This document shows positions 2,373-27,151 of a stretch of 32,571 nt of DNA, in pieces. Location of the stretch: NCBI GenBank assembly GCA_001825665.1, contig MHXZ01000034.1:1-32571 (forward strand), in the 5' to 3' direction. Positions within the stretch are counted from its first letter, which is position 1. Each line of letters begins with the position of its first letter. Origin of the DNA: Planctomycetes bacterium GWF2_41_51 (lineage in GTDB: Bacteria > Planctomycetota > Phycisphaerae > Sedimentisphaerales > UBA12454). Position numbers and translations under genes: made by a program. The notes under the pieces were generated by a model. The model was not told the origin of the DNA. It did no database searches and was given only the letters and a program-made list of their open reading frames with translations.

Positions 2373-3191
2373 ATGAAAACTTGTGATGTTCGTAGAAAAG
2401 CTTTCACATTGGTTGAGTTGTTAGTTGTAATATCAATTATTGCTCTGTTATTGGCTGTTCTCCTTCCATCACTGCAGAAAGCCAGAGAGCAGGCACAAAG
2501 AGCGATTTGCGGGTCAAATCTAAAGCAATTGGCGATGGGATTGATATTATATGCTGAAAATAACAATAATAAGCCGATGTCAAACACAGAATTGCAGGGT
2601 CAGTTCTGGTTTCATAAGATAGCTCCATTTCTCGGTGATGCTGCTTATCAAAAATTAGCGCAGAGTACAAATAAAAATGAGGCTAATCCGTTGCTTGAAA
2701 AAGCTATGAGAGTGCTTTTTTGTCCAACAACAAAAAAAGCTAAAGATCAATGGGACAATCAGGATATGTTTCGCAAACGCGGTACAGCAACTACACCATG
2801 GTCTTTTTATGGGAGCCAGGGGAGTTATGGGGTTAGTACTTGGGTTACTTCGGACAATATTGAAATTCAAAATATGTATCCTGATTATACTTATAAAAAA
2901 TTTTCCGAAACTAAATCCAATACTCCTTTGTTCGGTGATTGCAGTTCTTTGTCCAGTCTTCCTTTGGATAAAGATGCAGCTCCCAGAGATGTGATTGCAC
3001 CACCTGATACAAGTATCAATTTGATGTGGCGTTTTGCTATTGACCGGCACGGGAGAGCAATCAACGTAGTTTTTGCGGATTCCCATGCAGGCAAAATCCA
3101 GTTACAGAAATTATGGTCTCTTAAATGGCATAAGAAGTTTATTACCCGAGATTGGAAAGAATTCACATACGTCACCAAATGGCGGAATTAA
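2373..3191 (+). CDS. Pseudopilin-like protein with prepilin N-terminal methylation motif
   Basis: The protein has 272 residues and a strong Shine-Dalgarno (AGGAGGT) 8 bases before the ATG. A type IV prepilin leader is plain: basic residues, then A10|FTLVELLVVISIIALLL, with the conserved Glu at position 5 of the mature chain and a hydrophobic helix to about residue 33. The remainder resembles the large planctomycete family of single-pilin-domain proteins ('CGSNLKQLAMGLILYAENN', then 'VVFADSHAG' and 'LWSLKWHKKF' near the end). Such genes occur in dozens of copies near sugar-degradation loci; whether they form pili or a secretion pseudopilus is not established. It stands between the regulator and the secreted proteins. 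The family call is firm, the role is not. Confidence 0.9.
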   Translation: MKTCDVRRKAFTLVELLVVISIIALLLAVLLPSLQKAREQAQRAICGSNLKQLAMGLILYAENNNNKPMSNTELQGQFWFHKIAPFLGDAAYQKLAQSTNKNEANPLLEKAMRVLFCPTTKKAKDQWDNQDMFRKRGTATTPWSFYGSQGSYGVSTWVTSDNIEIQNMYPDYTYKKFSETKSNTPLFGDCSSLSSLPLDKDAAPRDVIAPPDTSINLMWRFAIDRHGRAINVVFADSHAGKIQLQKLWSLKWHKKFITRDWKEFTYVTKWRN

Positions 3192-3283
3192 AGAATAACA
3201 GTAAAGATTTTAAAAAATTTGCTTATAGAACCAAGTAGATAAATCGGGAATTCAAAAAATTATTTTTGAAAGGATGGATGGAA

Positions 3284-5812
3284 ATGGTGGTCAAAAGAAT
3301 TTATTGTTATTTCATTTTATTGATCTTCCTGGCAAATGCATATTCAGCAACCTCTGTAACCAATAAATGGCTTGGCACAGACAGTAATGATTGGAATCAA
3401 TCTACCAACTGGGATCTTGGCAGGATTCCAAACTATGTTAATGATAGTACATATAAAGGTGATTATGTCTGGATAAATTATGTCCCCGGACATCCTGAAG
3501 GATGTGTTATCAATGGCGGCGATCAGGAAGCTTATAATGTCAATGTAATGCGTGAAGGTATTGACAATAGTTCGGTGAATGCAATCCTCAATCTTAAATC
3601 AGGCTCTTTAACGATAAAAGGCTGGGAATTGAAACTTGGAATGGGGACCTATGGCTATTATGTATTACATCCAGCCCAGCCGTACTCCATCGTCAATATG
3701 TATGAAGACTTCACGCTGAATATTAACGGAACAGGTGGGCTTACAATTGGTGATTATTATGATGGCGAATTTAATATGTATGGAGGTGTTTATAACCATA
3801 ATGCGGGAGGATTTCGTGTTGGCAATTCAGCATACAATGGAGGTCTTGGATATGCAAGTGGAACGCTGAATCTTTACGGCGGCCGGATCAATGTGAATGT
3901 CTGGAATAGCGGCCTTAACAGGGTAGACATAAGGGATTTTACCCCGGACAGCAAAATTTATGTCGGCGACGGCAATATGGCATTAATTGGCAATAATATT
4001 TCATTTTTAGGAAATTCCATAGAACAGGGATATATAGCAGCGATAAGCCCAAGGATACTTATCGTTGATTATAATGAAAATGATGGCAGTACCGGCACTA
4101 CTTACCTGCGTGCCGAAATTCCTACAAAAGCTTATGATCCTCAACCTGCTAATCTCGCCCAGGAGGTTAGTATTACTGGAACATCACTAAACTGGCAACC
4201 GGCGATAGGAGCAGTCCGGCATAAAGTATATTTTGGGATATCGGAATCCAATCTTGAATTAATCGCGGACATAGAAGAACCATCAATATCTCTTGCAACC
4301 CTTGAGTATGGCCAAAAATATTATTGGCGTGTCGATGAAGTAAACTCTGTTGGAGGTATTTCAGAAGGTTATATTTGGGGTTTCACAGCAAGCGACGGAA
4401 TTGTAATAGATTTGTTCGAAGGTTACGATGAAACGAATCCTATAACAAATAATTGGAGCAGTGAAGGCAGCGGGAATATTTCATTAGAGCTGCAAAAAGC
4501 TTTCGATAATATATATGAAGGAGATAAATCAATAGCGTTGAATTATTATAACAGCAATACCTATTCAGAGGCTGTATATACTTTCAGCGGAACATCTGAC
4601 TGGACTGTTTATAGCGTTGAATCATTATTTTTTGTTGTTCACGGCAAACAAACTAATAGCGGCGATATTTTGTATGCGGCAATTGAAGATTCAACAGGTA
4701 CCTTAAGTAATGTAGTTACATACAGCAACAATCCTTCTGATATAGTTCAAACGCTTTATTCTCCGTGGTTAGTGTTCGACATTGATATTGCGGATTTTGG
4801 AGCATCAGTTAATCTAACGCAAATCAAAAAGCTGCACATTGGTATTGGCAACAGAATAAATCCGAATACCAATACTTCTGGAGTGATACACATAGATAAT
4901 ATAAAATTATATCCTTCCAGGTGTCTAAAAGATAAAACTCCGGCAGATTTGACCGGTGACTGTTTGATCAACCTTAGAGATTTTGCGGACTTTGCCTTGG
5001 CATGGTTGCAAGATGCATCGCCTGTGGCGCCTCATAAAGCTGCTGTATTAAAATATGATTTTGAAGATACATCAAACCCTTATACTGCCGTTGATGTAAT
5101 TGGCAGTTTCGATGGAACTATTGAAGGGGCAGATTTATACAATGGTTATTATGAAACAAGGGACAATAGAAATGCTTATTTGTTTTTGGGACTTTATGGT
5201 GATATCGGAATAAAAATTCCTTCAGAAGCTTTTGCATCATTGGAAGATCAAATAACCATATCATTATGGGCTTATGGTGACCCCGAACAATTGCCGAGAC
5301 ATACTTATGCATTTAAATTTGTTGCAGGCGGCAATACTCTCTTTAGTACCTTACCATCCTCTGGGGAATACGTTTACAATCTGATGGGGTTGGGAAGTGA
5401 TGATTTAATTTACCACCCAGCTTCATCGACTGCCTATACAGGGCAGTGGGTGCACTGGGCCTTTGTAAGGGATTTCGGTGCCGGAAAAATGAGTATTTTC
5501 CGAAATGGTATAGAGGTTGCTTCGAAATCTGATGCAAGTATCGGGACTTCGATATTTTCTTCTATTGATTATGCCTGGGTCGGAGCAAGAGAATTGGTTG
5601 GAGATGTTACCAAACCAGATACTTCATATTGCGGATGGATAGATGATTTTGAGATATATGATTATACACTTTCACAAAAGGAAATTATCTATCTTGCTAA
5701 TCAGACTTTTGACGCAGATTTAGTTGCTGATTTTGACAATAACAACCAAATTGATTTCGATGATTTATCGGTCATTGTAAATGATTGGCTGGAAGAAATA
5801 CTGTGGCCTTAA
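3284..5812 (+). CDS. Large secreted protein: N-terminal beta-repeat module, FN3-like, LamG, split dockerin
   Basis: ATG 3284 is chosen because AAGGA lies 9 bases upstream and it gives a clean signal peptide (MVVKRIYCYFILLIFLANAYSA); a TTG at 3266 and an ATG at 3278 are also in frame. Of 842 residues, about 23-265 form the beta-repeat module shared with three neighbours. About 275-365 look FN3-like ('HKVYFGISES', 'YYWRVDEVNS'). About 370-545 look like a galactose-binding-type sandwich. A dockerin-like half follows at 554 ('DLTGDCLINLRDFADFALAW'), then a LamG/concanavalin-like domain at 587-807, and a second dockerin-like half at 812-836 ('DFDNNNQIDFDDLSVIV'). No catalytic motif was seen, so a binding or structural role is likely. 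It is followed 50 bases later by the PEP-CTERM gene. Confidence 0.85.
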   Translation: MVVKRIYCYFILLIFLANAYSATSVTNKWLGTDSNDWNQSTNWDLGRIPNYVNDSTYKGDYVWINYVPGHPEGCVINGGDQEAYNVNVMREGIDNSSVNAILNLKSGSLTIKGWELKLGMGTYGYYVLHPAQPYSIVNMYEDFTLNINGTGGLTIGDYYDGEFNMYGGVYNHNAGGFRVGNSAYNGGLGYASGTLNLYGGRINVNVWNSGLNRVDIRDFTPDSKIYVGDGNMALIGNNISFLGNSIEQGYIAAISPRILIVDYNENDGSTGTTYLRAEIPTKAYDPQPANLAQEVSITGTSLNWQPAIGAVRHKVYFGISESNLELIADIEEPSISLATLEYGQKYYWRVDEVNSVGGISEGYIWGFTASDGIVIDLFEGYDETNPITNNWSSEGSGNISLELQKAFDNIYEGDKSIALNYYNSNTYSEAVYTFSGTSDWTVYSVESLFFVVHGKQTNSGDILYAAIEDSTGTLSNVVTYSNNPSDIVQTLYSPWLVFDIDIADFGASVNLTQIKKLHIGIGNRINPNTNTSGVIHIDNIKLYPSRCLKDKTPADLTGDCLINLRDFADFALAWLQDASPVAPHKAAVLKYDFEDTSNPYTAVDVIGSFDGTIEGADLYNGYYETRDNRNAYLFLGLYGDIGIKIPSEAFASLEDQITISLWAYGDPEQLPRHTYAFKFVAGGNTLFSTLPSSGEYVYNLMGLGSDDLIYHPASSTAYTGQWVHWAFVRDFGAGKMSIFRNGIEVASKSDASIGTSIFSSIDYAWVGARELVGDVTKPDTSYCGWIDDFEIYDYTLSQKEIIYLANQTFDADLVADFDNNNQIDFDDLSVIVNDWLEEILWP

Positions 5813-5862
5813 TGTGTAGTTAAGGCGTGATATTTTTACTTAATTAAATGTTGGAGGAAAAA

Positions 5863-6756
5863 ATGAAGAAGTTACTATTGTTAATTGTGTTTGCAGCTAT
5901 CGCAAGTAACTTATCTGGTGCAAGCATAACTGTAAAATGGACAGGTACAACAAGTGATGATTGGGGTACTGAAAGCAACTGGGATGCGGCAAGGCTTCCA
6001 AGTTACTACAAAGTTACCGGAGGTAATACCGGCGATTATGTATGGGTCAATTATCTTAGTAATCGTCCGGAAGGTTGTACCATATCCAGTGGTGACCATG
6101 AAATTTACTCAGTTTTCGTTATGAGAGACGGATTGGATGACACAAGCAAACAGGCCATACTTAATCTTGAGGGTGGCTCATTAAACATTAAGGGTTATGA
6201 TTTCAAAATGGGAGTAGCATCAACTTCGTCATGGTATGCTTCACACCCAACTGCTCCGAGTGCTGTGGTAAATATTTATAATGGATTTACCTTAAATGTC
6301 AATGGAGCCGGCGGCGTTACGATTGGCGATTATTATGATGCCACTTTAAATATGTATGGCGGGACTCTTAATCTTAATGCAGGCGGTTTTAGGGTAACCA
6401 ATAATGCTTATAATGGCGGATTAGGTTATGCTTATGGTACGCTTAATCTTTTAGATGGTGTAATAAATATAAACACATGGAATGCAACATTGGGTCAGGC
6501 GGACCTTCGTGATCTTACTCCGAAAAGCAAAATCAACGTAGGAGATGGTGTAATGGCTCTGACTGGCGACAGCACTGCCAGACTTCAGGCATATGCGAAT
6601 TTAGGTTTGATAGAAGCAATGCCCGGTTTGACACTTTCCATTACTTTTAATCCGAACGTTGGTGAAAGAGGTACAACATATCTGACAGCAGTTCCGGAAC
6701 CTGCAACGGTTATGCTTCTAAGTCTGGGTGTGGTTCTTCTTCGTAAGAAGAAATAG
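5863..6756 (+). CDS. PEP-CTERM protein made almost only of the shared beta-repeat module
   Basis: ATG 5863 is preferred over ATG 5848 because GGAGG ends 5-6 bases before it and the resulting signal peptide begins MKKLLLLIVFAAIA. The protein has 297 residues. Residues about 20-270 match the N-terminal module of the preceding gene closely (shared: 'GDYVW', 'NYxxxxPEGC', 'TIGDYYD', 'LNMYGG', 'NAGGFRV', 'AYNGGLGYA'). The last 21 residues are a PEP-CTERM signal: VPEP, a hydrophobic helix and RKKK. Such tails are processed by an exosortase, none of which is encoded here. The protein is probably a surface or matrix protein. A strong terminator follows it. Confidence 0.9.
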   Translation: MKKLLLLIVFAAIASNLSGASITVKWTGTTSDDWGTESNWDAARLPSYYKVTGGNTGDYVWVNYLSNRPEGCTISSGDHEIYSVFVMRDGLDDTSKQAILNLEGGSLNIKGYDFKMGVASTSSWYASHPTAPSAVVNIYNGFTLNVNGAGGVTIGDYYDATLNMYGGTLNLNAGGFRVTNNAYNGGLGYAYGTLNLLDGVININTWNATLGQADLRDLTPKSKINVGDGVMALTGDSTARLQAYANLGLIEAMPGLTLSITFNPNVGERGTTYLTAVPEPATVMLLSLGVVLLRKKK

Positions 6757-6782
6757 CTTTGTCATAGATTAGAATATGAATG

Positions 6783-6814
6783 AAAGGGGTCTATGCGTTT
6801 TGATAGACCCCTTT
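6783..6814 (+). terminator. Hairpin terminator after the PEP-CTERM gene
   Basis: AAAGGGGTCTAT (6783-6794) and ATAGACCCCTTT (6803-6814) form a perfect 12-bp stem with an 8-base loop, followed by the T-rich ATTTAG. The T run is short, so read-through is possible. Only 25 bases separate the hairpin from the next start codon. Confidence 0.85.
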
Positions 6815-6839
6815 ATTTAGAAAGTCATTTGCAATCGTT

Positions 6840-9035
6840 ATGTTCCTGAAAAAAAAAATAAATGAATGTATAATCCTGTCCATACTGCTTGCACAAGTAT
6901 CGTGGGGAGCGACATTCATTATAAATCACTGGATACATACCGTGCAAAATAATTTATGGCAAAATCCCGATAATTGGAGTCAGGGACGGGTGCCGGTATA
7001 TTATAATGATGGCGAAACTAAATATGATATTGTTTATATCAATTCCACACCATCTTCATCACAGGGGTGTGTTATTGAAGATGGGAACAATATTGCATAT
7101 AGTATCTATATTTCGAGAAATGGAGAATCTAATGAGCCTGCCGTATTGACTATGAATGGTGGGTATCTTGAAGTAAAAGGGTGGGAGATGAAATTAGGAT
7201 ATGATGACGCTAATGCTAGCCGAGGAATATTCAATTTAAATGATGGAACAGTTAATATCAGTGGAACTGGAGGAGTCTGTATCGGTTATGGATTAGAAAG
7301 TCAGGCTGAGATTAATATAAATGCAGGAATTTTCAGAACGCAAAAGTTGTATGTCTCTTTCACAGGCTCAAATGCGTATGGGCGATTGAACCTAAACGGA
7401 GGGATGTTTTTTGTTGGACTTGGCAATTATTTCTTTGTGAATCAGCCGGGCAGAATCGATATATATCAAGGAATGCTGGTAATTAATGGAAATGTGGAGT
7501 CATACGTACAGAATCTTGTTCAGGCAAATTTGATCACAGCATACAATGGCACAGGTACTATCAATGTAACTTATAATGAGGCTGCTAATCAGACTGTAGT
7601 TAGTGCTTCTCCTGATATTATTATAGATTTTTCAATAGAGAAAGGTTCGGCCATAAATCGAGCTGCCGGATTTTTACATTCGATTTCTCCCAATGCCCCT
7701 GATGCTAATCTTGTGAATGTATTAAAGCCCAAAATATTCAGACTGTCTGCAACAAGAGGGTATGGAGATACGGGAAATGCATTCGAAAATTATCAGAGAG
7801 TTCACAATGTAATTGGAGCTGACATTCAGATTGTTTTAAGTGATGGTTTCAGAGATACTGTCGGAGGCTGGCCCGGTGATAACAGTAACTGGATTGCCTG
7901 GGAAGATTATGTTCGTGGTATTGTGAATGACGCAAAAGACGGGAATTATATTTTTCAGTGGGATATATGGAATGAAGCAAATACCGAGACTTTCTGGAAT
8001 CCCGACGGCACTGCAACAGAAAAGAGAGAACGGTTTTTCGAGGCATGGAAACGAGCCTGGCTGATAATTAAATCCATTAATCCTGAAGCTGAAATTGTGG
8101 GGCCAAGCAATTCATGGTATCAGGAATTGTCTAACAGATGGTTTACAGTTGAAGAATTTCTAAGTTTTGCAAAAGGTAATGATGTCTTGCCTGATATACT
8201 GACATGGCATACATGGAATGAAAATACGATTATTCCTGATACTACCCAAGCAAGAAATTTTATGGCAGCTAATGGTTTCAATATAGATCGGATTGTGATT
8301 AATGAATACGGTGGAATAGCACAGCACGTTCTACCGGGAACGTGTGTCTGGTATTTTGCAAATGTTCAAGATGCAAATGTGTACGGGGTAAGAGCTTGTA
8401 CTTTAGATCCGGAAGGTTGCTCAACATGCTGGAACGTAAGTCTTACTGGTTTATTGACATATCCTGAGCAGCAGCCAAGATCGACATGGTGGACATATAA
8501 AAGTTATGCTGAAATTACAGGCACTTTGGTTGAAGTAATGGGGAATGATAATATAAATGGTTTGGCGGCAAAAGATGCAGATGCTTACTCAGTTTTAAGT
8601 CGGCCGCAAGTAAAAATATTACTTGGCAAAAGGGCTGGTGTAACTGAAGATGAATTTGTCCTTTTAACAGGTTTAGAAAATTCTTCATATCTTAAGGATG
8701 ATTCGGGATATATTCGTTTGAAAGTGGAGCATATTCCAAATTCAGGTTGGGATGCTTTGCCTGCTCCTGTTTCTGTCAGCGACACACTAATTCGTTTTGC
8801 AAACTCGATAAATGTTTTAGTTCCTGATTTTGGTCCTGCGGATGCTTATATTATCACTATTACTAATCCCAAAATCTATAAAGTTGATATGAATAACTTA
8901 AGTATCTTTATTTCACATTGGCTTGATGATAATTCTGACCAGCAAGGCTGTAATGATTACCCAGTTGGGGATTTAGATTATAACTGCAAAGTTAATTTCG
9001 TAGATTTAAGTTTATTGTCATTATATTGGTTTTAA
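6840..9035 (+). CDS. Secreted clan GH-A glycoside hydrolase (GH39-like) with shared N-terminal module and dockerin tail
   Basis: 731 residues with a signal peptide ending near 'AQVSWGA'. Residues about 25-257 are the shared beta-repeat module ('DNWSQGRVP', 'LTMNGGYLEVKGWEMKLGY', 'LNLNGG'). Residues about 258-620 look like a TIM barrel of clan GH-A: Glu379 in 'WDIWNEAN' fits the acid/base and Glu489 in 'VINEYGG' fits the nucleophile, 110 residues apart. Residues about 680-731 hold two dockerin-like halves; the second is complete ('GDLDYNCKVNFVDLSLL'), the first lacks part of its calcium loop. It probably cuts a plant- or algal-type polysaccharide outside the cell; the substrate is unknown. There is no good Shine-Dalgarno before ATG 6840. 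It heads a run of five closely spaced genes. Confidence 0.85.
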   Translation: MFLKKKINECIILSILLAQVSWGATFIINHWIHTVQNNLWQNPDNWSQGRVPVYYNDGETKYDIVYINSTPSSSQGCVIEDGNNIAYSIYISRNGESNEPAVLTMNGGYLEVKGWEMKLGYDDANASRGIFNLNDGTVNISGTGGVCIGYGLESQAEININAGIFRTQKLYVSFTGSNAYGRLNLNGGMFFVGLGNYFFVNQPGRIDIYQGMLVINGNVESYVQNLVQANLITAYNGTGTINVTYNEAANQTVVSASPDIIIDFSIEKGSAINRAAGFLHSISPNAPDANLVNVLKPKIFRLSATRGYGDTGNAFENYQRVHNVIGADIQIVLSDGFRDTVGGWPGDNSNWIAWEDYVRGIVNDAKDGNYIFQWDIWNEANTETFWNPDGTATEKRERFFEAWKRAWLIIKSINPEAEIVGPSNSWYQELSNRWFTVEEFLSFAKGNDVLPDILTWHTWNENTIIPDTTQARNFMAANGFNIDRIVINEYGGIAQHVLPGTCVWYFANVQDANVYGVRACTLDPEGCSTCWNVSLTGLLTYPEQQPRSTWWTYKSYAEITGTLVEVMGNDNINGLAAKDADAYSVLSRPQVKILLGKRAGVTEDEFVLLTGLENSSYLKDDSGYIRLKVEHIPNSGWDALPAPVSVSDTLIRFANSINVLVPDFGPADAYIITITNPKIYKVDMNNLSIFISHWLDDNSDQQGCNDYPVGDLDYNCKVNFVDLSLLSLYWF

Positions 9036-9053
9036 ATTTTTAGAAAAGGTATT

Positions 9054-11537
9054 ATGTCAAAAATATTGAAAGATTTATTTATTGTCCCGGACATCGATGA
9101 TTCTAAAGTAATTGTTACTTTTACTGCGCCACAAGATTGCAGCGAGTGCTCCTGGTCAGTTTTAGATCAGAATAAAAGTTCTGTTAACACTGGTTATTTT
9201 AAAATAAATTCCAGAAATGTTAAATTTGAGGCAAATATCGCAAAATTTAATACATGGAGTTGCGATGATCCTTATCTTTATACACTCCAGTTGATTATAA
9301 AAATCAAGGACAAAAAAGAAACAATTGCCGAAAATTTTGGTATGCGTAAGATTCATGTTTCAGAAAACAATATTTATGTAAATAATGAAAAAGTTTACAT
9401 TCGAGGATATATAAGAGGTAGAGATGCACATGATCATCCAAATTTTCTTGGTCTGCCGCTCGAAGAATACTATGGCAAAAATATTAAAATCGCAAAAATA
9501 TATGGCTTTAATTTGATCCGATTTCACTCTCGTGTTCCTGCAGAAGAGTGCTTTATAGCCGCAGATAAACTTGGAATTTTTATTCATATTGAAATCAGAG
9601 ATTATTATGGGAAATATCAAAAAGAACGTTCAATGATGAATGATGAAGGAGAATTAATAAGCAACGAGAAATGGGTAGATATTATTTTAAAGTATAGAAA
9701 CCATCCATCTTTAATGGTTTACTGTATGGGCAACGAAATTAGGCACCCCGGCACAAATCCGCAGGTCGCTGAAATATCAAATATAACAAAATCGCTTGAT
9801 CCAACTCGACTTTTTATCGATACCTGTGCACATGGAGAATTTGATCGGGACCATGTAGATATCGATGTTCAGCATATGAGTTACTATTATCCTTTTGGCA
9901 AAAACTATGATATGTTCAATAATACTTATAACTGGCATATCTATGGCTCTGCCAAAGGTGTTCAAATGATTTCCCAAAATACTGAATGCAAAATTACCCG
10001 TGCGCTTACCGCGAAACATCCGGTTCTTGCCCATGAGATATGTCATTATGTCGCTTTGCGTGATATAAATGGTTTGGAGAGTAAATTTAATGAATTGCAA
10101 ATGGAAAAGCCCTGGTGGCTTGACGAACTTAAAAAACTTATAAAGCATAAAGGATTAGAGAAGGATTACACCTCTTTGATAGCAGCCAGCAAAAAATTTC
10201 AATTTTTAAGCTGGAAACTTGGTTTTGAGGCAGTGAGAAGAAGTCCTCTTTTGTGTGGCTTTCACTTTCTACAATTGTCTGATACTGAAAAATATGAAAA
10301 TAGCAATGGGATTGTTGATTGTTTTGATGATTCGGCTGGAGTCGATGAAAAAGAATTCTTAAAATTCAATTCAAGTACAGTTATTCTGGCAGATTTGCCT
10401 CGCAGAACTTTTTTTGAGAAAGAAAAAGTCAAAATTCCAGTCTTTCTTTCACATTTTTCAAAAGAAATGAAAGGTGCAGCGGATTTGTCAGTTAAATTAA
10501 GTTGTGCAGATGACTCCTTGATTTGCATAACAAATACTCTTAAAAACATAGATATTAATAAACTCGGCCGATATGAAATAGCAACTTTAGAAATATCTAT
10601 GCCGGAAGTTGTATCTGCTAAATGCCTTGATTTTAAATTAGAACTTATCTGTAAAAACAATTCTCAAACAATCGAAAATAATTGGAATATATGGCTTTTT
10701 CCCAACAGACCAATAGAACTGGAAATTCCAGAATGCAAAATTGAATTGGAAGAAATTAATTTAGCCTGGCGATACCCGCAGATAATGAATAAAAAACAAA
10801 AAAATAAAAATCCAAAACTTCTTATAGCAAACAGATTTACCGAGGAAGTTTTCAAACATTTAGATTTAGGCGGTGATGTATTGTTGCTGTATCGAGTTCC
10901 TGTAACACGAGACCGAAAGAGCAGGGCTGCAAAAGAAAAATATTATCTGCCCGCAACATGGGACAGATTCAAAGGTGTAATATGGGACAGGGGCACAAAT
11001 TGTGGCGGGTTCATACGTCCTAATCATGTTCTTACGCATTTTCCGAATGAAAGTTTTATTGATTTGCAATTTTCAAATCTGATAGATGACTGTGATAAAA
11101 TCATACTGGATGATTTTCCTTGCGACCTTGATCCAGTGATTCAGGGGATTGATAAGTCAGTTCGAGATCGTTTTGATGTTTACACATACAAACTCTCTGG
11201 ATTTCAGCCAGGCTGGACAATGCGTAAATTTGCATATCTTTTTGAGATAAAAGTGGGAAGAGGGAAATTGTTGATAACAGGCTTCAATTTTACAGGCCTT
11301 AATTCCGGTGTGCCAGAAACTTGCGCAATGTTTGAATCATTAATTAAATATATATCCTCGAGTAAATTTAATCCTGTTAAAAAAATTGATTTGGATAAAT
11401 TTACAGAGTACTTGCATAAAAAAGGACAGACAGGAATCATCAAAGAAAGAAAAATGACGCAATTCTGGCAATTGAATGATTCACCACTTGAATCGGATCA
11501 GTACTGGAAGGAATCTGAAAAATACTTAGCAGAATAA
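9054..11537 (+). CDS. GH2-like glycoside hydrolase without signal peptide or N-terminal jelly roll
   Basis: 827 residues starting 18 bases after the previous stop. The protein begins directly with what is normally the second GH2 domain, the Ig-like sandwich ending in 'DDPYLYTLQL' and 'NFGMRKIHV'. The TIM barrel follows ('NEKVYIRGYIRGRDAHDHP', 'GFNLIRFHS'), with Glu228 in 'MGNEIRHPG' as acid/base and Glu328 in 'LAHEICHY' as nucleophile, 100 residues apart. The C-terminal part ('GRGKLLITGFNFTGLNSG') resembles the accessory domain of long GH2 enzymes. It lacks a signal peptide, unlike most neighbours, so it is probably cytoplasmic and acts on imported oligosaccharides. The adjoining symporter gene fits this. 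Sugar specificity (galactoside, glucuronide or other) cannot be told. Confidence 0.85.
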   Translation: MSKILKDLFIVPDIDDSKVIVTFTAPQDCSECSWSVLDQNKSSVNTGYFKINSRNVKFEANIAKFNTWSCDDPYLYTLQLIIKIKDKKETIAENFGMRKIHVSENNIYVNNEKVYIRGYIRGRDAHDHPNFLGLPLEEYYGKNIKIAKIYGFNLIRFHSRVPAEECFIAADKLGIFIHIEIRDYYGKYQKERSMMNDEGELISNEKWVDIILKYRNHPSLMVYCMGNEIRHPGTNPQVAEISNITKSLDPTRLFIDTCAHGEFDRDHVDIDVQHMSYYYPFGKNYDMFNNTYNWHIYGSAKGVQMISQNTECKITRALTAKHPVLAHEICHYVALRDINGLESKFNELQMEKPWWLDELKKLIKHKGLEKDYTSLIAASKKFQFLSWKLGFEAVRRSPLLCGFHFLQLSDTEKYENSNGIVDCFDDSAGVDEKEFLKFNSSTVILADLPRRTFFEKEKVKIPVFLSHFSKEMKGAADLSVKLSCADDSLICITNTLKNIDINKLGRYEIATLEISMPEVVSAKCLDFKLELICKNNSQTIENNWNIWLFPNRPIELEIPECKIELEEINLAWRYPQIMNKKQKNKNPKLLIANRFTEEVFKHLDLGGDVLLLYRVPVTRDRKSRAAKEKYYLPATWDRFKGVIWDRGTNCGGFIRPNHVLTHFPNESFIDLQFSNLIDDCDKIILDDFPCDLDPVIQGIDKSVRDRFDVYTYKLSGFQPGWTMRKFAYLFEIKVGRGKLLITGFNFTGLNSGVPETCAMFESLIKYISSSKFNPVKKIDLDKFTEYLHKKGQTGIIKERKMTQFWQLNDSPLESDQYWKESEKYLAE

Positions 11538-11559
11538 TAAAATAAAGGAATTTTGAAGA

Positions 11560-13548: not shown

Positions 13549-13563
13549 TTATAAGGAATTACA

Positions 13564-15129
13564 ATGCGCAAGAAAAGTATTATTTTGGCAATTTCCGTAA
13601 TATACCTGTTATTAACTATAGGATTTGTTTCGCCTTTGAGAGGCGGCATTCCTACTTTTCAAGAACTTATGGATCCAAATTTTTGCCCCAATGCGCAATT
13701 TGGCATGAAGATTGAAAACTCATCAATTGATGATAACAGTTTAAAAGTTGAGACAACAGGAAGCGTTTTGCAAATAAATTTTAATGAAAGCAGCTTTCAA
13801 TTTGCGCAGAAAATTGGCAAAGTTCGAAATATTTTAAAAGTTGAATTCTCAGTAGATATCTCAAAGCCAATTATAACACACTCCAAGTCAGGAATGGTAT
13901 TCGTGAAATTCGAGGAATCAGGCTTTGATTTTAGAGCAAACGGTGATTCGCTTTTTATGATACATGCTAAAAAGCCTCTTACCATTTCTTTAAAACCTGA
14001 TTTTATTCCGGTTTTCGATGGCAATTATCAGTCTAATCATCTACTTTTAGATGAGTATGGCGGTTTTGGAGTTTATTGCAGTATAATTGATTTGCCCGAC
14101 AAATATAATAAACTCTCAGAGACTATCGCTGTTTACGATTTACCCGAGGATTCAGTTTTGTGGATATCGATATGTCCTCCGAAAAAATATGACTGGCAAA
14201 AAAGCATAAACGACAATGTATTGTGGCATTGGTCGACTGTAACGAGTTATCCAGATGATGAAACCATTAAGTCGTGGATTCCTTACGGCAATACGGTTCT
14301 TTTCCAGGGAGAAATAATGCTTTGGAAAGATTGGAATCTTGGTTTTGAGCCGAGGCTTGGAATTAAGGAATGGAATCGTGTTAAAAATACTCTTCATCAG
14401 AATAAAATGAGATACATGGTTTATACCAGTCCGTATTATTATTTGCTGGGAACGGAATTCAAAAATGAAGCAGTCAACAGTTTTGACAACTTCAAGGGAT
14501 GGCCGACAAACAAACCCACTCACGGTGAAAATGTAGATCTTTTTATTGAAGCGATTACTAAAGTAATGAAAGAATTGAAGCCGGATGGTTTGTATTTTGA
14601 CGGCACTTATAGAGATAACATTGCAGCACAATATAAGCTTGCACGGCATACTCGAAACATTGTTGGCGAAAATGGATTGCTCGAATGGCATTCCACGTTG
14701 GCTTTTGGCAAAACAAAGGTAAAGGATTTATGTTATCTGCCGCAAGTTGATTCGTATGCAGATTATATTCTTCGAGGCGAGCATCTCAAAACTGATTTCA
14801 ATGATTTAAATTATTTACGATATTACGTTTCAGGTTACAACGCCAGCAATTCTATCGGTGTTTTTTGCACAAGGGACCACAGTTTTATAACAGAAAAGTT
14901 TTGTCAGATATTGTTTGATAATAATATTCGTCTCCATTTAGCTACAGGAAAAGAGAACCTGCGAATAAAAAAATACTCTGGCTGGGTCTATCAGCAGGAA
15001 GTACTTAAGAAATATCACGATCTCTATCTTTCCAAATTAAGTCCCGGTTTACAATACAGAGTAGAGAAACTATGCGACAAAAGGCAAGAAGAATATGAAA
15101 AATCAACTGTTGCTTCGAAAAATAACTAA
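13564..15129 (+). CDS. Secreted putative glycoside hydrolase, TIM-barrel type, family unknown
   Basis: 521 residues with an N-terminal hydrophobic signal (IILAISVIYLLLTIGF). The first ~200 residues look like a beta-sandwich. The second part has the look of a TIM barrel: 'QGEIMLWKDWNLGF', 'NKMRYMVYTSPYYYL', then 'LKPDGLYFDGTYRDN' with Asp341 and Asp346 as candidate catalytic or binding acids, and 'LLEWHS'. The 'PDGxYFDG' pattern is seen in several retaining glycosidase families related to alpha-galactosidases, but I cannot place this protein in a numbered family. It lies in the hydrolase/symporter run with 15-20-base gaps, supporting a role in breakdown of the same glycan. It carries no dockerin or PEP-CTERM tail. 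Confidence 0.7.
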   Translation: MRKKSIILAISVIYLLLTIGFVSPLRGGIPTFQELMDPNFCPNAQFGMKIENSSIDDNSLKVETTGSVLQINFNESSFQFAQKIGKVRNILKVEFSVDISKPIITHSKSGMVFVKFEESGFDFRANGDSLFMIHAKKPLTISLKPDFIPVFDGNYQSNHLLLDEYGGFGVYCSIIDLPDKYNKLSETIAVYDLPEDSVLWISICPPKKYDWQKSINDNVLWHWSTVTSYPDDETIKSWIPYGNTVLFQGEIMLWKDWNLGFEPRLGIKEWNRVKNTLHQNKMRYMVYTSPYYYLLGTEFKNEAVNSFDNFKGWPTNKPTHGENVDLFIEAITKVMKELKPDGLYFDGTYRDNIAAQYKLARHTRNIVGENGLLEWHSTLAFGKTKVKDLCYLPQVDSYADYILRGEHLKTDFNDLNYLRYYVSGYNASNSIGVFCTRDHSFITEKFCQILFDNNIRLHLATGKENLRIKKYSGWVYQQEVLKKYHDLYLSKLSPGLQYRVEKLCDKRQEEYEKSTVASKNN

Positions 15130-15149
15130 CATTTTGCAGGAGGCTTATA

Positions 15150-18068
15150 ATGCACCATCATCATGTTGTAAAAATAGTTGTTAGCTGTTTTTTAATGTTT
15201 GTTCAACCTGGTTGGGTTCATGGTAATCGTCCTTCTGAAATGACTGAAGTTCGAAGGGATGTATCGCCTTATCCGGAACTTGTGAATTTTGAAAATCTTG
15301 ATGGCTGGAAATTGGAGACTACTGGGGGTATCGATGCGGATCTTTCTAAAACTGATGAAAGCATTGTTTATGGGACTCATTCTGCAAAAATAGTAGTAAA
15401 TAATTCATCGTCCGGCAAAATTTCCCTTTTGCCACCCGAGCCAATTGCAATTGCTTCCGATTTTGATACTGTCAATATGTGGACTCGTTATGTTCCATAT
15501 AAATATTGTGTTGGGCCAAATATAAAATTCTACATTGTTCTTGAAGATAACCAGGCACAAACATATCGTGTGGATTTAGAATGCGGGTATTTTGGTGTGT
15601 GGGAAATATTGAACACAAGGATAATTGCCCCTGACGGTAAACGGTTGAATTATGAGCCACCTGCAAAAATGGTTCAGCCCGTTCGATTTAGATCGATTGA
15701 CATTGAATTTGCTCCTGCAAACCTGCAGCCTCCATTTACAATATATCTTGATTCTTTATCTATTTTTAAGGAAGAGTTAAAACCTTTAAAATATAAATAT
15801 TCAATAGATAATCTACCAAAACCAACTACCATGGACACAATACTGCCAATCACTAAAAAAACTGTTAATAACAAAATTCAACAAATCGAGAATTATTATG
15901 AATTAATATGTGAAGATGACGAGGCTAAAATTGTTTACAGAATTTTACCTGAAAAAGGTACTCTTAATGATGTGAAAGCAGAATATGCAGGCAAAGAGTT
16001 TTGGCCTTGCTATGATGGCGGTATTGTTTTTAAGTTCGGCGACGAAATTATCAGGCCAGAAAACAGTCAATTACAAGTTGAAAATACTTCTATTCATTTG
16101 AAAGATAACTTATTAGATACGCACTGGAAGTTGCGATATAAAGATTATGCTGCAGAGTATCGTTTAATATATCAGGTTAAAAAAAAGTCGCTTATAATAG
16201 ATATTTCAACTGAAAATAATAACGGTATTGAAGTTGTTTTGGGCAGTGCAAAGCCATTGCCGGGTGCAAAATCTATTCAGGTGCCTTATTTGCGGTTCGA
16301 AGATACAAGCCCTCAAATAATTTCTTACAAAGATTTGTTCCTGTCTTGCTTTTTAGATTGGTGGAGTTCGGATTCTACAATGCTTTATGCTAAAAACGGT
16401 TTTACAGAAGACGGACAAGGAATTTTTTGTAATGGGGGGGCGCAATATTTTCCGCTGACAAACGGTAATTATAATAATATTAAAGAACGTTTGTTTATAA
16501 CAATTTCGAGAGATTTCCAGGAAGTTCTTCCAAATATCCCAAATCCCAAATCTCCTTACCTCGATAAATATAAATGTTCAAGCTGGCGTTGGCTTTATGG
16601 TGGTCCGCGTAAGATTGATTGGGTCCGGCAGTTACACGATTATGGCGTTGAGAATTTTATGGTACGTTTTCACGCGGATGGTATGCGGGACGGCAATGAA
16701 AGCTATTCGCTTAGAGAATATTCAGCCCCTTCTATAGGAGATAAATTATTCAGGGAAGTGGGACAGGAATTAAAGGATATGGGTTATGGCTTTGCAGTAT
16801 ACAGCAGTTACATCGGAATTGAAGGAATAAACAAAAATTTTGATCTCGATATTCTAAATCGTGACATGCTAGGTAATACGACCGCTAAGTTTTTACGATA
16901 TAGGGTCAAACCGCTTGCTTTTGTAGATATTCATTCTGAAATGGCACCGCGAATACATAAACTGTTCGGGACAAATTTTTCATATCTTGATGTTCATGCC
17001 GCCCGGGCGCCATGGCGAGATACTGATTGTGATAGCAGAAGTCCTATGCCGGGCATGTTCAGACTGGATTTTTTAGCAAATGCACAAGTTATGCTCAATG
17101 ATCGAATTGCTCACGAAGGGCCTGTCTGGTCGGAGGGAGGAATGCAGTTTCTTTACGCTGGTTTTGTAGATGCAACTTATGGATATATGGGACACGAAAC
17201 ACGGTGGGATAAATCTACGGATATAGTTGATTTTGATCTTCTTAGACTTCACCCGCGAATGATAAGTATTGGTATGGGCGATTTGCCGATGTACTATAAG
17301 AAAACTCAATTTCGAGAACCCCGTAATAGATTTAATCCCTGGCTCGACCGCTTCATTGCAGCAACAATTGCTTACGGCCATGCCGCCTGGCAGGTTTATC
17401 CTGCGGATTTTGAGTTAGGAGGAGCATTGAAATCTTATTTTCTCACAAATGCAGTTCAGTCCTGTTATATAGGTGTTGATGTAGAAGAAATTGGATATTT
17501 TGATGGATCGAAAATCGTTGATACATCAAAAGCCATTCAGACTGACGCTTATTTACGAAGACAAATATATGTTCGCTATAAGAATGGTTTACAAATTTGG
17601 TCAAACTTGAACCATGATAATTTAGATTGGAAAATAGAAATTAACAATTCAGCATATGTTATTCCAAGCGGCGGTTTTGTTGCATTTAAACAAAATGACC
17701 TGCTTGCGTACTCAGCAAAAACAAATGGTTACGAACGGCATGAGTACGTCAGATCGCCGGCATATATTTATCTTGATGGCAGAGATAAACCAATTGCTAT
17801 TGAAGGAATCAAGCTTGCTAAGGGAGCTTGTGCGATAAAAACTGGTTGCAAAGATAAATTTATAGTTTGTGCCTTACCTGATTTTGAAAAGCTTGCCATC
17901 AGTCCAGCTTTGATTAAACAGATAGGATGTGTATCTCTTGAAACGAAACGGTCTCGCACTTTTAATAATTTCAAAATAGACGAAAATGGATGGTTGAACA
18001 TTGATAAGCCGAATTCACCAAAGATAATAATATCATCAAACAATGATTCAAGCGTTACAAATAATTAA
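15150..18068 (+). CDS. Large secreted putative glycoside hydrolase, family unclear
   Basis: 972 residues with a strong ribosome binding site (GCAGGAGGC). The signal peptide starts MHHHHVVKIVVSCFLMFVQP. The four native histidines are read as natural, since the frame and codon use continue smoothly. Residues about 40-210 resemble a carbohydrate-binding sandwich ('ENLDGWKLETTGG'). The rest looks like a supersandwich plus barrel: 'KYKCSSWRWLYGGPRKIDWV', 'ENFMVRFHADG', 'FSYLDVHAARAPW' with Asp614, and 'AHEGPVWSEGG' with Glu656 and Glu662. The Asp and Glu boxes recall alpha-N-acetylgalactosaminidase-type families such as GH101/GH129, but only loosely; a new family is equally possible. It is the last gene of the tight run. 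Confidence 0.65.
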   Translation: MHHHHVVKIVVSCFLMFVQPGWVHGNRPSEMTEVRRDVSPYPELVNFENLDGWKLETTGGIDADLSKTDESIVYGTHSAKIVVNNSSSGKISLLPPEPIAIASDFDTVNMWTRYVPYKYCVGPNIKFYIVLEDNQAQTYRVDLECGYFGVWEILNTRIIAPDGKRLNYEPPAKMVQPVRFRSIDIEFAPANLQPPFTIYLDSLSIFKEELKPLKYKYSIDNLPKPTTMDTILPITKKTVNNKIQQIENYYELICEDDEAKIVYRILPEKGTLNDVKAEYAGKEFWPCYDGGIVFKFGDEIIRPENSQLQVENTSIHLKDNLLDTHWKLRYKDYAAEYRLIYQVKKKSLIIDISTENNNGIEVVLGSAKPLPGAKSIQVPYLRFEDTSPQIISYKDLFLSCFLDWWSSDSTMLYAKNGFTEDGQGIFCNGGAQYFPLTNGNYNNIKERLFITISRDFQEVLPNIPNPKSPYLDKYKCSSWRWLYGGPRKIDWVRQLHDYGVENFMVRFHADGMRDGNESYSLREYSAPSIGDKLFREVGQELKDMGYGFAVYSSYIGIEGINKNFDLDILNRDMLGNTTAKFLRYRVKPLAFVDIHSEMAPRIHKLFGTNFSYLDVHAARAPWRDTDCDSRSPMPGMFRLDFLANAQVMLNDRIAHEGPVWSEGGMQFLYAGFVDATYGYMGHETRWDKSTDIVDFDLLRLHPRMISIGMGDLPMYYKKTQFREPRNRFNPWLDRFIAATIAYGHAAWQVYPADFELGGALKSYFLTNAVQSCYIGVDVEEIGYFDGSKIVDTSKAIQTDAYLRRQIYVRYKNGLQIWSNLNHDNLDWKIEINNSAYVIPSGGFVAFKQNDLLAYSAKTNGYERHEYVRSPAYIYLDGRDKPIAIEGIKLAKGACAIKTGCKDKFIVCALPDFEKLAISPALIKQIGCVSLETKRSRTFNNFKIDENGWLNIDKPNSPKIIISSNNDSSVTNN

Positions 18069-18346
18069 AAAGTGATTTAGGTTTATATTTTTAAGAAATG
18101 TAACGAAGTTTTTAAGGGAGCTTAGATTAGTTCCTGTATTTTAAAAAATTAGATTAAAGAATTTTACTTCAGATTGAGAGTTACTGACATTCCGAATTTA
18201 GTAAGAAGTCAAAGTAGCGCAAGATGATAGTGCGCTTATAAAATGCCAACTCCGATTATGTTGAAGAAAGGAGGTGTGATATGTAATCAGACACGACTTT
18301 AATATCGTATTTAATTTTGATAAATATTTAGAAAGGGAGGTTTATT
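18069..18346 (+). other. 278-base leader region before the multimodular GH39-like gene
   Basis: No gene is seen. A weak promoter candidate is TTGAGA (18174) with a 17-base spacer to TTTAGT (18197). A small hairpin with 6-bp arms (AGCGCA 18216-18221, TGCGCT 18231-18236) follows. At 18266-18275 there is a near-perfect Shine-Dalgarno (AAAGGAGGTG), 5 bases before an ATG that is immediately followed by TAA. The real gene has its own Shine-Dalgarno (AAAGGGAGG) further down. The region may therefore be a regulated 5' leader or a relic of an earlier gene start. Confidence 0.5.
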
Positions 18347-21300
18347 ATGTGTAAAAAATTGTACATTTTGGTTTTAGTAGTTTTATTCTTCAGTAAAACA
18401 TGGGTTTCAGCTGCTAACAACTATTGGACTAACGACGCTAATGACTTTTCCTGGAGTACGGCAGATAACTGGTCTTTGGATAGAGTTCCAATTCGTGAAC
18501 CATTCGCTACAGGCGCGACTTATAATGATTATGCCCATATAAATTATTTGTCATCTTCTCCTAATGGCTGTAATCATGATATAGGTGACAATTATGTTCA
18601 TTCAATATGGATAGCTCGATATGGCACTAACACATCACCGGCTATTTTAAACATGAATGGAGGTTCAATAAGTGCTTATTGGATTGTAAGGTTAGGTAAT
18701 GATAACGAAAGTGGCAGCCATGCTGTATTAAATATGAATGCCGGTACTATTAATTGCACAACTGGCGATGGTCTGCAGGTAGGTTATGATAGTCAGGCTA
18801 CCTTGAATATGGTTGGCGGAACAATTAATGCAGGTAAATTCAAAGTTTCAAATGCAACGTATAAGCCTTTTTCTGTTGTCAATCTCGATGGCGGAATATT
18901 AAACTGTACCTCTATTGACGTCAATGATGCTAATGGTTTGATCAAAATTGAAGGTGGAACCCTTGTAATTGATGGTAACTGTCTTTCACTTGTACAAACT
19001 TATATTAACAATGGCAGAATCACTGCATATGATCATTCAAATTATATTAACGTTGACTATAATGTAACTAATGCAGGCAAGACAACTCTCGTATCGAAAT
19101 CAAATAATCCAGTACCATATTCTAGCTGTACCGGTATTTACCAGGATATGGATTTAACCTGGCAGCCAGGAACAAATGGCAATACGTATGATGTTTATTT
19201 TGGAACAAGCTATTCAGGTGTTCTAAACGCTACTACTTCAACATCAGGAATTTTCAAAGGTAATCAAACCGGGATAAAATATGATCCTGGTACATTATCA
19301 ATTAATAATAATTATTATTGGAGAATCGATGGAGTCAATGCCACCGGTAATAAAATAAAAGGGAATATCTGGAATTTTACCACAACTAAATTTGTTAAAA
19401 CGTATAGCTTCGAAAGCGGCGACCTGAATTATTGGGTTACGTCAACATATGGTGGAATCACAAACAACCAGAACTTAGTACTTAGTGGAAACAATTCTCT
19501 TGAGATAAACAGCCTTGCAAATGGTACCGGCCATCACATGGTTTTTCAGGCTTCATATACAAGTGTTCAATTTGAAGCGGGCAAGAGATACTCAATTTCT
19601 TATGATTATGATGTCAAGCAGGTGAATACAAGGGAAGGTTCGTATTTTTATTCGGTAATGGAATCTGAATCTGGCGCAGGTCCTGCCTATTGCTATCATA
19701 AATTCAGAGAAGATACTCCTGATGGCGAGAACTGGCATGAAATGAAAGTTATCTTACCTGGTGGTGTGAATGATTACAAGTTACGTTTTTATGTTTATAA
19801 GCAAGGTCATGCTATCATCGACAACATCAAAATTCAGGAACTGCCGTCTTTGAATTGGGATGCAGAGGGAGTTATTGTAGAAGATAGTGATTACGAACCT
19901 TATGGAATATGCACACATCTTGACCGAATAGATAGTTATTATTCATCAGGAGTGAGCGACACCGAGGTTAACGATTTGGTAGATTATATGTCTGAAGCCG
20001 GCATACAATGGTTTAGAGTTAATATTACGTGGAAGGATTCTGAAATTGCCAAAAATACATATGACCCGAATTTATTACATAGAATGGATCAAGTAATCGA
20101 TTATTCTATTTCCAAAGGGGTCCAACCTTATATCCAGTTAGGTTCAACACCTGCATGGGCATCTGTGGAACCAAATTTAGGGAGTTATAATACATGGGCA
20201 CCAGAAGATTTGAGTGATTGGAAAGATCACGTAAACTATATAGCAAATCGATATAAAGGTAAGATTAAATATTGGGAAATAAGGAATGAGTTTAATGGAA
20301 CATTTTGGATGTCTAGTTTGGAAGATTACGTCCAATTCCTCAAAGCTGCACACGATGAATTAAAAACTGTTGATCCAAATAACAAAGTTATATTAGGCGG
20401 TTTGAGTAAAGATGGTGTATTTCTATATAGCTTTGGTGACGGTTTAAAGGAAAATGGTTTAGAAAAGGCTTATCTGATTGATGGATTCAAAGATTCTTTT
20501 GATATATTTTCCATACATCCATATTGTTCTCGATTTGAAACACTTTTAGAAGAAGTGCTTGATCTTTGTAATACAGCTTTCAGGACAATGGATAAATATA
20601 ATGATGGGAAGAAACCTGTCTGGATTACCGAGCAAATGCTAAGTTCTCGCGGGGACCCCAACTTATTGGATGATCAGGCTGAAGGTCTGGAAAAAATCTT
20701 TACTAAATTAATTAAGCATCCGAGAATAGACAAAATATTTTTCTATAATTTGTATGTATATGGTCAGACTCCCGGAAGCAGTTCAGAAAATTCCGGTATA
20801 ATAAATAATGACTTTACAACTCGTCCGGCTTATGAAACATATAAAAATCTGGCCAAATCGCTGCAAAGAAAAGTAAATTATAATTTGGAAATAGACCCAT
20901 TTGCGACAGCTTTTGCAGCAAGTAATCCCAAGCCTCATCAAAACGAGATTCTTGTTAATTCTCCAATTGTTTTAGAATGGACAGGTGTCGAGGGATCTGC
21001 CACATATGATGTTTATTTGGGTACAAATGAAAGCAGTGTAGCAAATGCCAATCATGCTTCACCAGAGTATAAAGGAACAGTTACTGCAACTGAATATGAT
21101 CCTTGCGGGCTTGATTCAGATACAAAGTATTATTGGGCCATAGACTGCAACGATGAACTAAATCCTATTTGGTCTGGCAATATTTGGGCTTTTACCACAG
21201 ATGCGAACTGGCAAGTCAATATGTTTTCTAGTGGCGGTGTTAATTATGTCTCCGTTGATAATGGTGTTATATATGCAGATTTTCAAGAAAGTGTTGCATG

Positions 21301-22414
21301 GACGTTAAGACACCTTACCTTTAAGGGTAAAGATGTGCTTTGCGGAATTGCAGGTGTGTACAATGGCACCGTAGTTAACGTTGACCCTAATAATACGTGG
21401 ATTGGTACAGGCCATGGCGGAGAAGTTGTAAACGATTTCACGATTAACATTGATGGTATTGATTATGACTTTGTAAGTGGCAATTCTTACGAAGGAAAAA
21501 CTGTGTCTGTTATCAAAGATTCTAATTTGGGACCATTCGATCTCAGCTCACACGTAATTTTTCCGGATAAGGGTGACTATCTTTTAGAGAAACATAAATA
21601 TACGGTAACAGAAAACTTGAATGACAGGTTTAATTATCTCTATGCATTTATGCATGGCTTTGAAAACTCCTACGATGAATCATTAGCTATTGTGAACGAT
21701 AGTGATGGTTGGATAACAAGAGCGATTACAGATAATGATGATTCTTTTAAAATTCAAGAAGAAGTCCAAGCCGTTACTCTTATAAGTCAGACTCTGAAAA
21801 CCGGAATTACTTGTGCTTATCCTGAAGTTTATGATGCCAATGGCTCCCTCAAAAATGCTGTATGGGACAGAACCAATAATAATAAACTTTATTTCAGAGC
21901 TGAAGTTCTTGATAAAGGATATTCTATCGGTGACAGTTTTGAATATGTTCTTAAATTTATTCCATTTACAACAGAGATATGGGAATGGAACGATCTTTCA
22001 AGAGAATATTCAGCATGGGGATTATATGAAGCAGAAGATGCTACTATATCAGGAGCGACCACCAGTTCTTTATACAATGGTTTTACTGGAACCGGGTTTG
22101 TAGATTATCTGAATAATAACAATGACTATATAGAATGGACCGTAGATGTTGATGCGACAGGGACATACAATCTTGAATTCCGCTATGCTTTGGCAAGTGG
22201 CAACAGGCCGTTAAAGATAGAGGTTAATGGTCAAGAGATTGAATCGAATTTATCTTTTCCTGCAACAGGATCATTGACGGCTTGGAATGTGGTTAGCACT
22301 CCCGCAACACTTAATAAAGGTGATAATTCAAATATAGTCAGAGCTACCGCGATCGGATCGAGCGGTGCTAATATCGACCATTTAAGTGTAAGTTTAATTA
22401 AAGGTGGTGATTAA
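18347..22414 (+). CDS. Multimodular secreted GH39-like hydrolase with shared N-terminal module, FN3-like domains and CBMs
   Basis: 1355 residues with a signal peptide (LYILVLVVLFFSKTWVSA). Order by eye: shared beta-repeat module about 23-245 ('DNWSLDRVP', 'LNMNGGSI', 'LNMVGGTI'); FN3-like about 255-345 ('YYWRIDGVN'); CBM4/9-like sandwich about 347-505; clan GH-A barrel about 515-845 with Glu648 in 'WEIRNEFNG' (acid/base) and Glu762 in 'WITEQML' (nucleophile), 114 residues apart; second FN3-like about 860-960 ('YYWAIDCND'); a beta-sandwich about 962-1215; and a CBM6/35-like domain about 1224-1353 starting 'YEAEDATISG'. GH39 is the nearest family by motif spacing, but GH5-type relatives are possible. 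There is no dockerin or PEP-CTERM tail. A strong terminator follows. Confidence 0.85.
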   Translation: MCKKLYILVLVVLFFSKTWVSAANNYWTNDANDFSWSTADNWSLDRVPIREPFATGATYNDYAHINYLSSSPNGCNHDIGDNYVHSIWIARYGTNTSPAILNMNGGSISAYWIVRLGNDNESGSHAVLNMNAGTINCTTGDGLQVGYDSQATLNMVGGTINAGKFKVSNATYKPFSVVNLDGGILNCTSIDVNDANGLIKIEGGTLVIDGNCLSLVQTYINNGRITAYDHSNYINVDYNVTNAGKTTLVSKSNNPVPYSSCTGIYQDMDLTWQPGTNGNTYDVYFGTSYSGVLNATTSTSGIFKGNQTGIKYDPGTLSINNNYYWRIDGVNATGNKIKGNIWNFTTTKFVKTYSFESGDLNYWVTSTYGGITNNQNLVLSGNNSLEINSLANGTGHHMVFQASYTSVQFEAGKRYSISYDYDVKQVNTREGSYFYSVMESESGAGPAYCYHKFREDTPDGENWHEMKVILPGGVNDYKLRFYVYKQGHAIIDNIKIQELPSLNWDAEGVIVEDSDYEPYGICTHLDRIDSYYSSGVSDTEVNDLVDYMSEAGIQWFRVNITWKDSEIAKNTYDPNLLHRMDQVIDYSISKGVQPYIQLGSTPAWASVEPNLGSYNTWAPEDLSDWKDHVNYIANRYKGKIKYWEIRNEFNGTFWMSSLEDYVQFLKAAHDELKTVDPNNKVILGGLSKDGVFLYSFGDGLKENGLEKAYLIDGFKDSFDIFSIHPYCSRFETLLEEVLDLCNTAFRTMDKYNDGKKPVWITEQMLSSRGDPNLLDDQAEGLEKIFTKLIKHPRIDKIFFYNLYVYGQTPGSSSENSGIINNDFTTRPAYETYKNLAKSLQRKVNYNLEIDPFATAFAASNPKPHQNEILVNSPIVLEWTGVEGSATYDVYLGTNESSVANANHASPEYKGTVTATEYDPCGLDSDTKYYWAIDCNDELNPIWSGNIWAFTTDANWQVNMFSSGGVNYVSVDNGVIYADFQESVAWTLRHLTFKGKDVLCGIAGVYNGTVVNVDPNNTWIGTGHGGEVVNDFTINIDGIDYDFVSGNSYEGKTVSVIKDSNLGPFDLSSHVIFPDKGDYLLEKHKYTVTENLNDRFNYLYAFMHGFENSYDESLAIVNDSDGWITRAITDNDDSFKIQEEVQAVTLISQTLKTGITCAYPEVYDANGSLKNAVWDRTNNNKLYFRAEVLDKGYSIGDSFEYVLKFIPFTTEIWEWNDLSREYSAWGLYEAEDATISGATTSSLYNGFTGTGFVDYLNNNNDYIEWTVDVDATGTYNLEFRYALASGNRPLKIEVNGQEIESNLSFPATGSLTAWNVVSTPATLNKGDNSNIVRATAIGSSGANIDHLSVSLIKGGD

Positions 22415-27132: not shown

Positions 27133-27151
27133 CGAGAAAAGGAGGATTCTT

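Follow-up and report, generated by a model that had tools for sequence, protein, structure and literature searches.

A predicted beta-helix module in bare PEP-CTERM-bearing and enzyme-bearing forms in planctomycete glycan-degradation loci

The window analyzed here, which is the whole of contig MHXZ01000034.1 (32571 bp, from a 4.8-Mb genome in 138 contigs), encodes four proteins, A, B, C and D, each of which starts with a signal peptide followed by a module of about 230 residues. What is new in these proteins is a paired architecture and its evolution, whereas the fold of the module itself is already known: the same module exists in a payload-free form with a PEP-CTERM sorting signal and in forms that bear enzymes. 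No description of this paired architecture was found in the literature searched as open-licence full texts. We tentatively favor, with somewhat less than even confidence, its reading as a locus-specific glycan-attachment module, present as one anchored and several enzyme-bearing copies in a manner similar to SusD and the surface glycan-binding proteins (SGBP).

In BLASTP, each of the six pairings of the four proteins aligned across the entire module (27-51% identity), with A and B being the closest (51%, E 5e-99) and the remaining five pairs showing 27-35% identity (E 4e-22 to 4e-39). These comparisons confirm, at the level of sequence, the homology of the N-terminal modules from one end to the other and, along with the signal peptides, they bear out the exported head of about 230 residues that the initial annotation had assigned to the four proteins. 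The starts that it had given at 3284, 6840 and 18347 hold, whereas that at 5863 is an internal ATG of the ORF of B, which spans 5848-6756. All four genes are on the plus strand. Protein A (848 aa, 3266..5812, with the ATG at 3284) consists of the module (3284..4115, from BLASTP and profile search), an FN3-like region, a dockerin-like half, a LamG domain (Laminin_G_3, 5201..5686, Pfam E 8.1e-16) and a second dockerin-like half, the two EF-hand halves being recognized by eye near residues 560-580 and at the C-terminus. Protein B (302 aa, 5848..6756) is the payload-free anchored form, with only the module (5848..6669, AlphaFold2 model mc080d22e8636) and a PEP-CTERM sorting signal (6688..6753; PF07589 21.2 bits for a cut-off of 20.7, TIGR02595 17.2 for a cut-off of 16), and its C-terminus has the PEP motif, transmembrane stretch and basic end of a PEP-CTERM substrate. 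In protein C (731 aa, 6840..9035), the module (6840..7610, BLASTP and profile) is followed by a GH5/39-type hydrolase, whose catalytic region (7656..8642) matches PDB entries 8uwt (E 9e-22) and 5u22 (E 3.6e-21), and by a dockerin-like C-terminus recognized by eye. Protein D (1355 aa, 18347..22414) joins the module (18347..19099, BLASTP and profile) to a GH39-like, PslG-like catalytic region (19964..20857, PslG match E 3.2e-9), FN3-like linkers recognized by eye and a CBM35 domain (22025..22345, Pfam E 2.7e-13). The payloads are thus those described from the letters of the window alone. The module bodies of A and B contain a single, unpaired Cys, at a position common to all four modules of the locus. 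Across the family, this Cys is present in 54 of 153 modules, often as one of two, and its concordance within loci (88 of 114, with 62 expected) exceeds expectation by an amount that ancestry accounts for; for this reason, linkage of the proteins through a conserved disulfide was dropped as a candidate.

The genes around A-D form a carbohydrate-utilization cluster, so that the window genes lie in a glycan-degradation locus, as SusD- and SGBP-type proteins do. Those from 1303 to 18068 are all on the plus strand. A LacI-family regulator (1303..2316) is located upstream of the cluster, and a DUF1559/N_methyl pseudopilin gene (2373..3191) directly precedes A. Between C and D are a GH2-family glycoside hydrolase lacking a recognized signal peptide (9054..11537), a sodium:solute symporter assigned by family match (SSF, 11560..13548), a secreted protein with no Pfam match (13564..15129), and a secreted 972-aa protein (15150..18068) with no Pfam or PDB sequence match, which is glycoside-hydrolase-like by context alone. 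Upstream of the LacI regulator, positions 1-996 encode a tyrosine recombinase (PF00589, E 1e-17) whose gene runs off the contig; mobility of the locus is a possibility. Further downstream, the ORF at 28306-29256 is an apparent truncated duplicate of the beta-helix gene at 23803-27132, with which it has in common the stretch AYGNANGSSSNGYGGGI.CNGTSPVIRNCII, and is possibly a pseudogene. Three PEP-CTERM proteins with HAF-type repeats, starting at 27074, 29281 and 30655, are clustered within 27074-31233, those at 27074 and 29281 having TIGR02913 and TIGR02595 matches. Rfam and tRNA searches of the window gave no match.

The occurrence of the module is confirmed to be far beyond chance, with 23 profile matches in its own genome and 153 module proteins gathered in all. 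A profile built from the four sequences matched 16 of 40 related genomes at E 1e-5, and most of the strong full-length matches obtained class-wide with a 46-sequence profile fell in the same order. In a sample of the phylum, 14 of 244 genomes matched at E 1e-15, nine of them being the own genome and members of the same order, and only weak partial matches were seen outside the order. The family is therefore expanded in its own genome and across its order, which is probably Sedimentisphaerales, and is nearly absent elsewhere in the phylum sample. Three proteins carry three or four modules in tandem (L065 1922-6793, L095 14727-17999 and L092 2845-5229), and the last of them has a dockerin-like motif at its end.

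None of the Pfam and NCBIfam models searched covers the modules of A-D. The loose likeness to T5SS/PEP-CTERM-associated repeats recorded at the outset was recovered as a weak relation to TIGR04393, which describes glycine-rich beta-coil repeats of secreted and PEP-CTERM proteins: E <= 0.01 was reached by 8 of 89 modules, with a best E of 5.5e-5, and none of the four full-length window proteins matched at E <= 1. Because of these weak matches, the coils of the module are likely to be distantly related to that repeat. Most modules go unmatched by TIGR04393, and the module differs from that repeat in forming a closed domain, capped at the N-terminus (W..W...NW....P) and at the C-terminus, in being fused to enzymes and in being paired with an anchored copy. 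PF14262 gave a weak match in one of the 89 modules, and the PDB sequence search a weak match to Mfa5 (E 2e-5) spanning the WxxxxNW cap and about half of the profile.

AlphaFold2 modeling of B with 89 family members (pLDDT 90, pTM 0.86) gave beta coils that are capped at the N-terminus and, by a helix plus strands, at the C-terminus, from which the module is predicted to be a capped right-handed beta-helix of about 230 residues. In VIA-align, this model fell among known right-handed beta-helices, such as pertactin (Z 11.4), Cthe_2159 (Z 10.9) and autotransporter passengers (about 10), and Foldseek gave no significant match in the PDB or among viral models. The residues conserved family-wide are structural, namely the Trp, Asn and Pro of the N-cap and the Gly of the turns, so that there is no sign of a common catalytic site. 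Beta-helices of similar fold need not bind glycans, since the related Awp1/Awp3b domains bound none (PMC8746771). In the model of a natural protein with three modules, each module forms a capped domain of its own and the domains do not stack in a defined way (pTM 0.41, from a shallow alignment of 13 sequences), a result that, within that depth of alignment, disfavors end-to-end polymerization of the solenoids into a continuous stacked fiber.

The distribution of the sorting signal was examined in 140 complete module proteins, a copy being taken as payload-bearing when over 90 residues follow the module. Of 45 payload-free copies, 37 had a PEP-CTERM signal, whereas a single one of the 95 longer copies did, and this one consists of repeats (Fisher P 8e-25). 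The same restriction was observed in a separate set of loci, added after the pattern had been seen in the first set (8 of 9 payload-free copies vs 0 of 35 longer ones), and seven of the eight payload-free copies lacking the signal end in a dockerin-like motif recognized by eye. It has to be noted that PEP-CTERM proteins are seldom enzymes in general (PMC1569441), so that one would expect, in part, to find payload copies without the signal. Among the families that occur as payloads are sulfatase, GH3, GH5, GH42, pectate-lyase-like, LamG, F5/8C, CBM35 and metallophosphoesterase. A common head on interchangeable effectors, noticed at first in the single locus, is thus a family-wide architecture in which the same module precedes unrelated payloads, and the earlier observation was right and understated. 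The suggestion that the PEP-CTERM copy may act as an anchored base finds support in the gene arrangement: a same-strand module gene lacking PEP-CTERM lies within 1.5 kb of 27 of the 37 anchored copies, but family f7 speaks against a strict base, as in that family eight of ten searched genomes have payload copies and no payload-free full-module ORF. The anchored base is therefore not obligatory, and loci L070, L073, L075 and L090 likewise have payload copies only.

A quick tree of 101 modules indicated how these forms have evolved. Locus labels changed 55 times on the tree, as compared with a mean of 75 and a minimum of 69 when labels were shuffled within genomes, whereas the PEP label changed 23 times for 28 anchored copies, as at random. 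Since the PEP label switches no better than random, the anchored copies do not constitute a lineage of their own, and descent of the PEP-CTERM copies from one ancient lineage was rejected. Taken with the grouping by locus, this behavior implies that each locus repeatedly gives rise to anchored and payload forms out of the modules that it already has. Simple whole-gene tandem duplication is insufficient as an explanation because, in 43 same-locus payload pairs, the modules match in all cases and the payloads are unrelated in 27. The best match of 18 of 34 anchored copies is in the same locus and, in 13 of those 18, it is a payload copy. Within one pair (locus L071 of genome G019), identity between the anchored copy and its payload neighbor reaches 95% over alignment columns 100-180 (96% at the DNA level). 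In its C-terminal part, the anchored module shares 93% identity with the G023 ortholog, as compared with 56% with the neighbor; judged from the alignment, this mosaic is a clear case of segmental gene conversion. Locus L074 has a patch similar to that of L071. Such conversion between neighbors may also be neutral. In the orthologous loci of genomes G025, G029, G039 and G021, the anchored module and the payload module separated long ago and have diverged, indicating that close sequence matching is frequent and not universal. Two adjacent genes of locus L133 (7615-9195 and 9333-10913) have payloads that are 80% identical and modules that are only 31% identical, possibly as a result of module exchange or of very fast module divergence.

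The genomic context of the module was studied in the complete genome G014, in which 86 neighbors of module genes were compared with 91 genes from 11 arbitrary control regions. Sulfatases accounted for 12 of the 86 neighbors vs 0 of the 91 controls among the 25 commonest families listed (Fisher P 1e-4), a contrast that would hold with the one control sulfatase possible beyond those families. Genes for GH95, GH106, alpha-fucosidase and AXE1 esterase were also found next to modules, and LacI-type regulators were not significantly enriched (6 of 86 vs 2 of 91). The initial annotation had stated that scattering of the module with no link to glycan loci would count against a shared scaffold; at least in G014, the link is present. 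N_methyl pseudopilins were enriched as well (8 of 86 vs 0 of 91 among the listed families, Fisher 0.003), and a DUF1559/N_methyl pseudopilin adjoined module genes in 24 of 33 cases, with 9.7 expected and none of 20000 permutations reaching 24. A pseudopilin was nearby in 28 of 76 module loci.

Dockerin-like ends were found by Pfam in 15 of 70 payloads. A search for cohesin (PF00963), which divergent cohesins could escape, gave no match in the own genome, and 38 of the 40 relatives examined had none either. Since cohesins went undetected so widely, anchoring is unlikely to go through dockerins as a rule and, with their usual partner missing, the N-terminal module and its anchored twin are the best candidate for holding proteins or substrate at the cell. 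Genome G014 encodes two cohesin domains in one 2069-aa ORF (C1 1003495-1004697; L104, L105), about 6 kb from module cluster L086. This ORF agrees with what has been published for Limihaloglobus sulfuriphilus, whose two-cohesin scaffoldin was judged unlikely to make a conventional cellulosome (PMC11557425). Exosortase was found in 40 of 40 relatives, and the own genome has two PF09721 matches above the cut-off (best E 6.5e-53); being universal in the group, exosortase is not specific to the paired modules.

According to the glycan-attachment reading, each polysaccharide-degradation locus would diversify its own version of the module. One payload-free copy would be tethered at the envelope through PEP-CTERM and exosortase, and the other copies would bear hydrolases, sulfatases, phosphoesterases or carbohydrate-binding domains. 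All copies of one locus would most likely recognize the same target, namely the polysaccharide degraded by that locus; the anchored copy would act like SusD or an SGBP in keeping this glycan at the cell, and enzymes would be delivered to it by the payload copies, which may be retained at the surface. Payloads often already carry LamG, CBM35 or F5/8C domains, so an extra glycan binder may be redundant. The modules might instead dock to each other, with those of the payload proteins binding the PEP-CTERM base module to module and the enzymes being held independently of glycan, in replacement of cohesin-dockerin pairing. We consider such docking unlikely. It would agree with the close relationship of many anchored and payload modules of a locus, with the homogenization of some of these pairs by gene conversion, and with the need for another anchor where dockerin-like C-termini are common and cohesins undetected, but neither the payload-only genomes of f7 and the four payload-only loci nor the separate capped domains of the three-module model, shallow as its alignment is, are what docking would lead one to expect. 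Glycan attachment was ranked above docking because a self-sufficient glycan binder fits better with the f7 genomes that have payload copies only.

Those same f7 copies would also be consistent with a module whose target is the exopolysaccharide or the envelope of the cell itself, so that secreted proteins are simply kept close by and the modules have diversified by drift; PEP-CTERM systems are tied to exopolysaccharide production (PMC1569441), and the module is N-terminal on secreted proteins. This explanation appears improbable, as a ligand common to all loci would predict neither that the modules of one genome differ and group by locus nor that their genes concentrate in sulfatase/CAZyme loci. 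Less probable still is a role in secretion or folding, for instance as the recognition domain of a type II-like export that uses the adjoining pseudopilin. The frequent adjacency of pseudopilin genes and their enrichment in G014 speak for it; on the contrary, a pseudopilin is near only a minority of module loci, a general export element should be conserved and not diversified by locus, and a cargo-free PEP-CTERM form would have no role.

The system favored here, glycan attachment through paired modules, resembles SusD and SGBP proteins of Bacteroidota polysaccharide utilization loci (PULs) in its gene content: the glycan locus encodes an anchored, non-catalytic candidate surface protein together with a regulator, a transporter and enzymes that are secreted. 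It differs from them in that the module is a predicted beta-helix and not a SusD fold, the anchor is an exosortase signal and not that of a lipoprotein, and the enzymes carry the same module; no SusD-type Pfam match was found over the module. The likeness to cohesin-dockerin cellulosomes lies in interchangeable enzymes with a common attachment domain, a separate anchored protein and dockerin-like C-termini, but no cohesin was detected in the own genome, and the module is N-terminal and has the same fold on anchor and enzyme. Cthe_2159, a polysaccharide-lyase-like, carbohydrate-binding protein of PF14262, is also a right-handed beta-helix (178 residues aligned by VIA-align), although it is only 11% identical to the module. 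The same fold is found in the passengers of pertactin-type autotransporters, the adhesin pertactin among them; the module proteins differ from these in lacking a beta-barrel translocator and in having PEP-CTERM or a free C-terminus instead.

A broader proposal, which seems possible to us and is held with more doubt than glycan attachment, is that these proteins constitute an unrecognized planctomycete surface assembly. It would consist of locus-matched sets of an exosortase-anchored bare beta-helix and enzymes with a cognate beta-helix, recognizing each other or the same glycan, matched by gene conversion and replacing both SusD-type capture and cohesin-dockerin pairing. Planctomycetes take up polysaccharides in a 'selfish' manner without Bacteroidota-type PULs or SusC/D, by a mechanism that is not known (PMC12323593; PMC11131199). 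The module, found in locus-matched bare anchored and enzyme-bearing forms in sulfatase/CAZyme clusters, provides named candidate genes for this selfish uptake. It is a candidate for the device that holds polysaccharides or enzymes at the cell surface in this order, and it casts doubt on a cohesin-dependent mode of action of the many dockerin-like domains in the genomes studied here.
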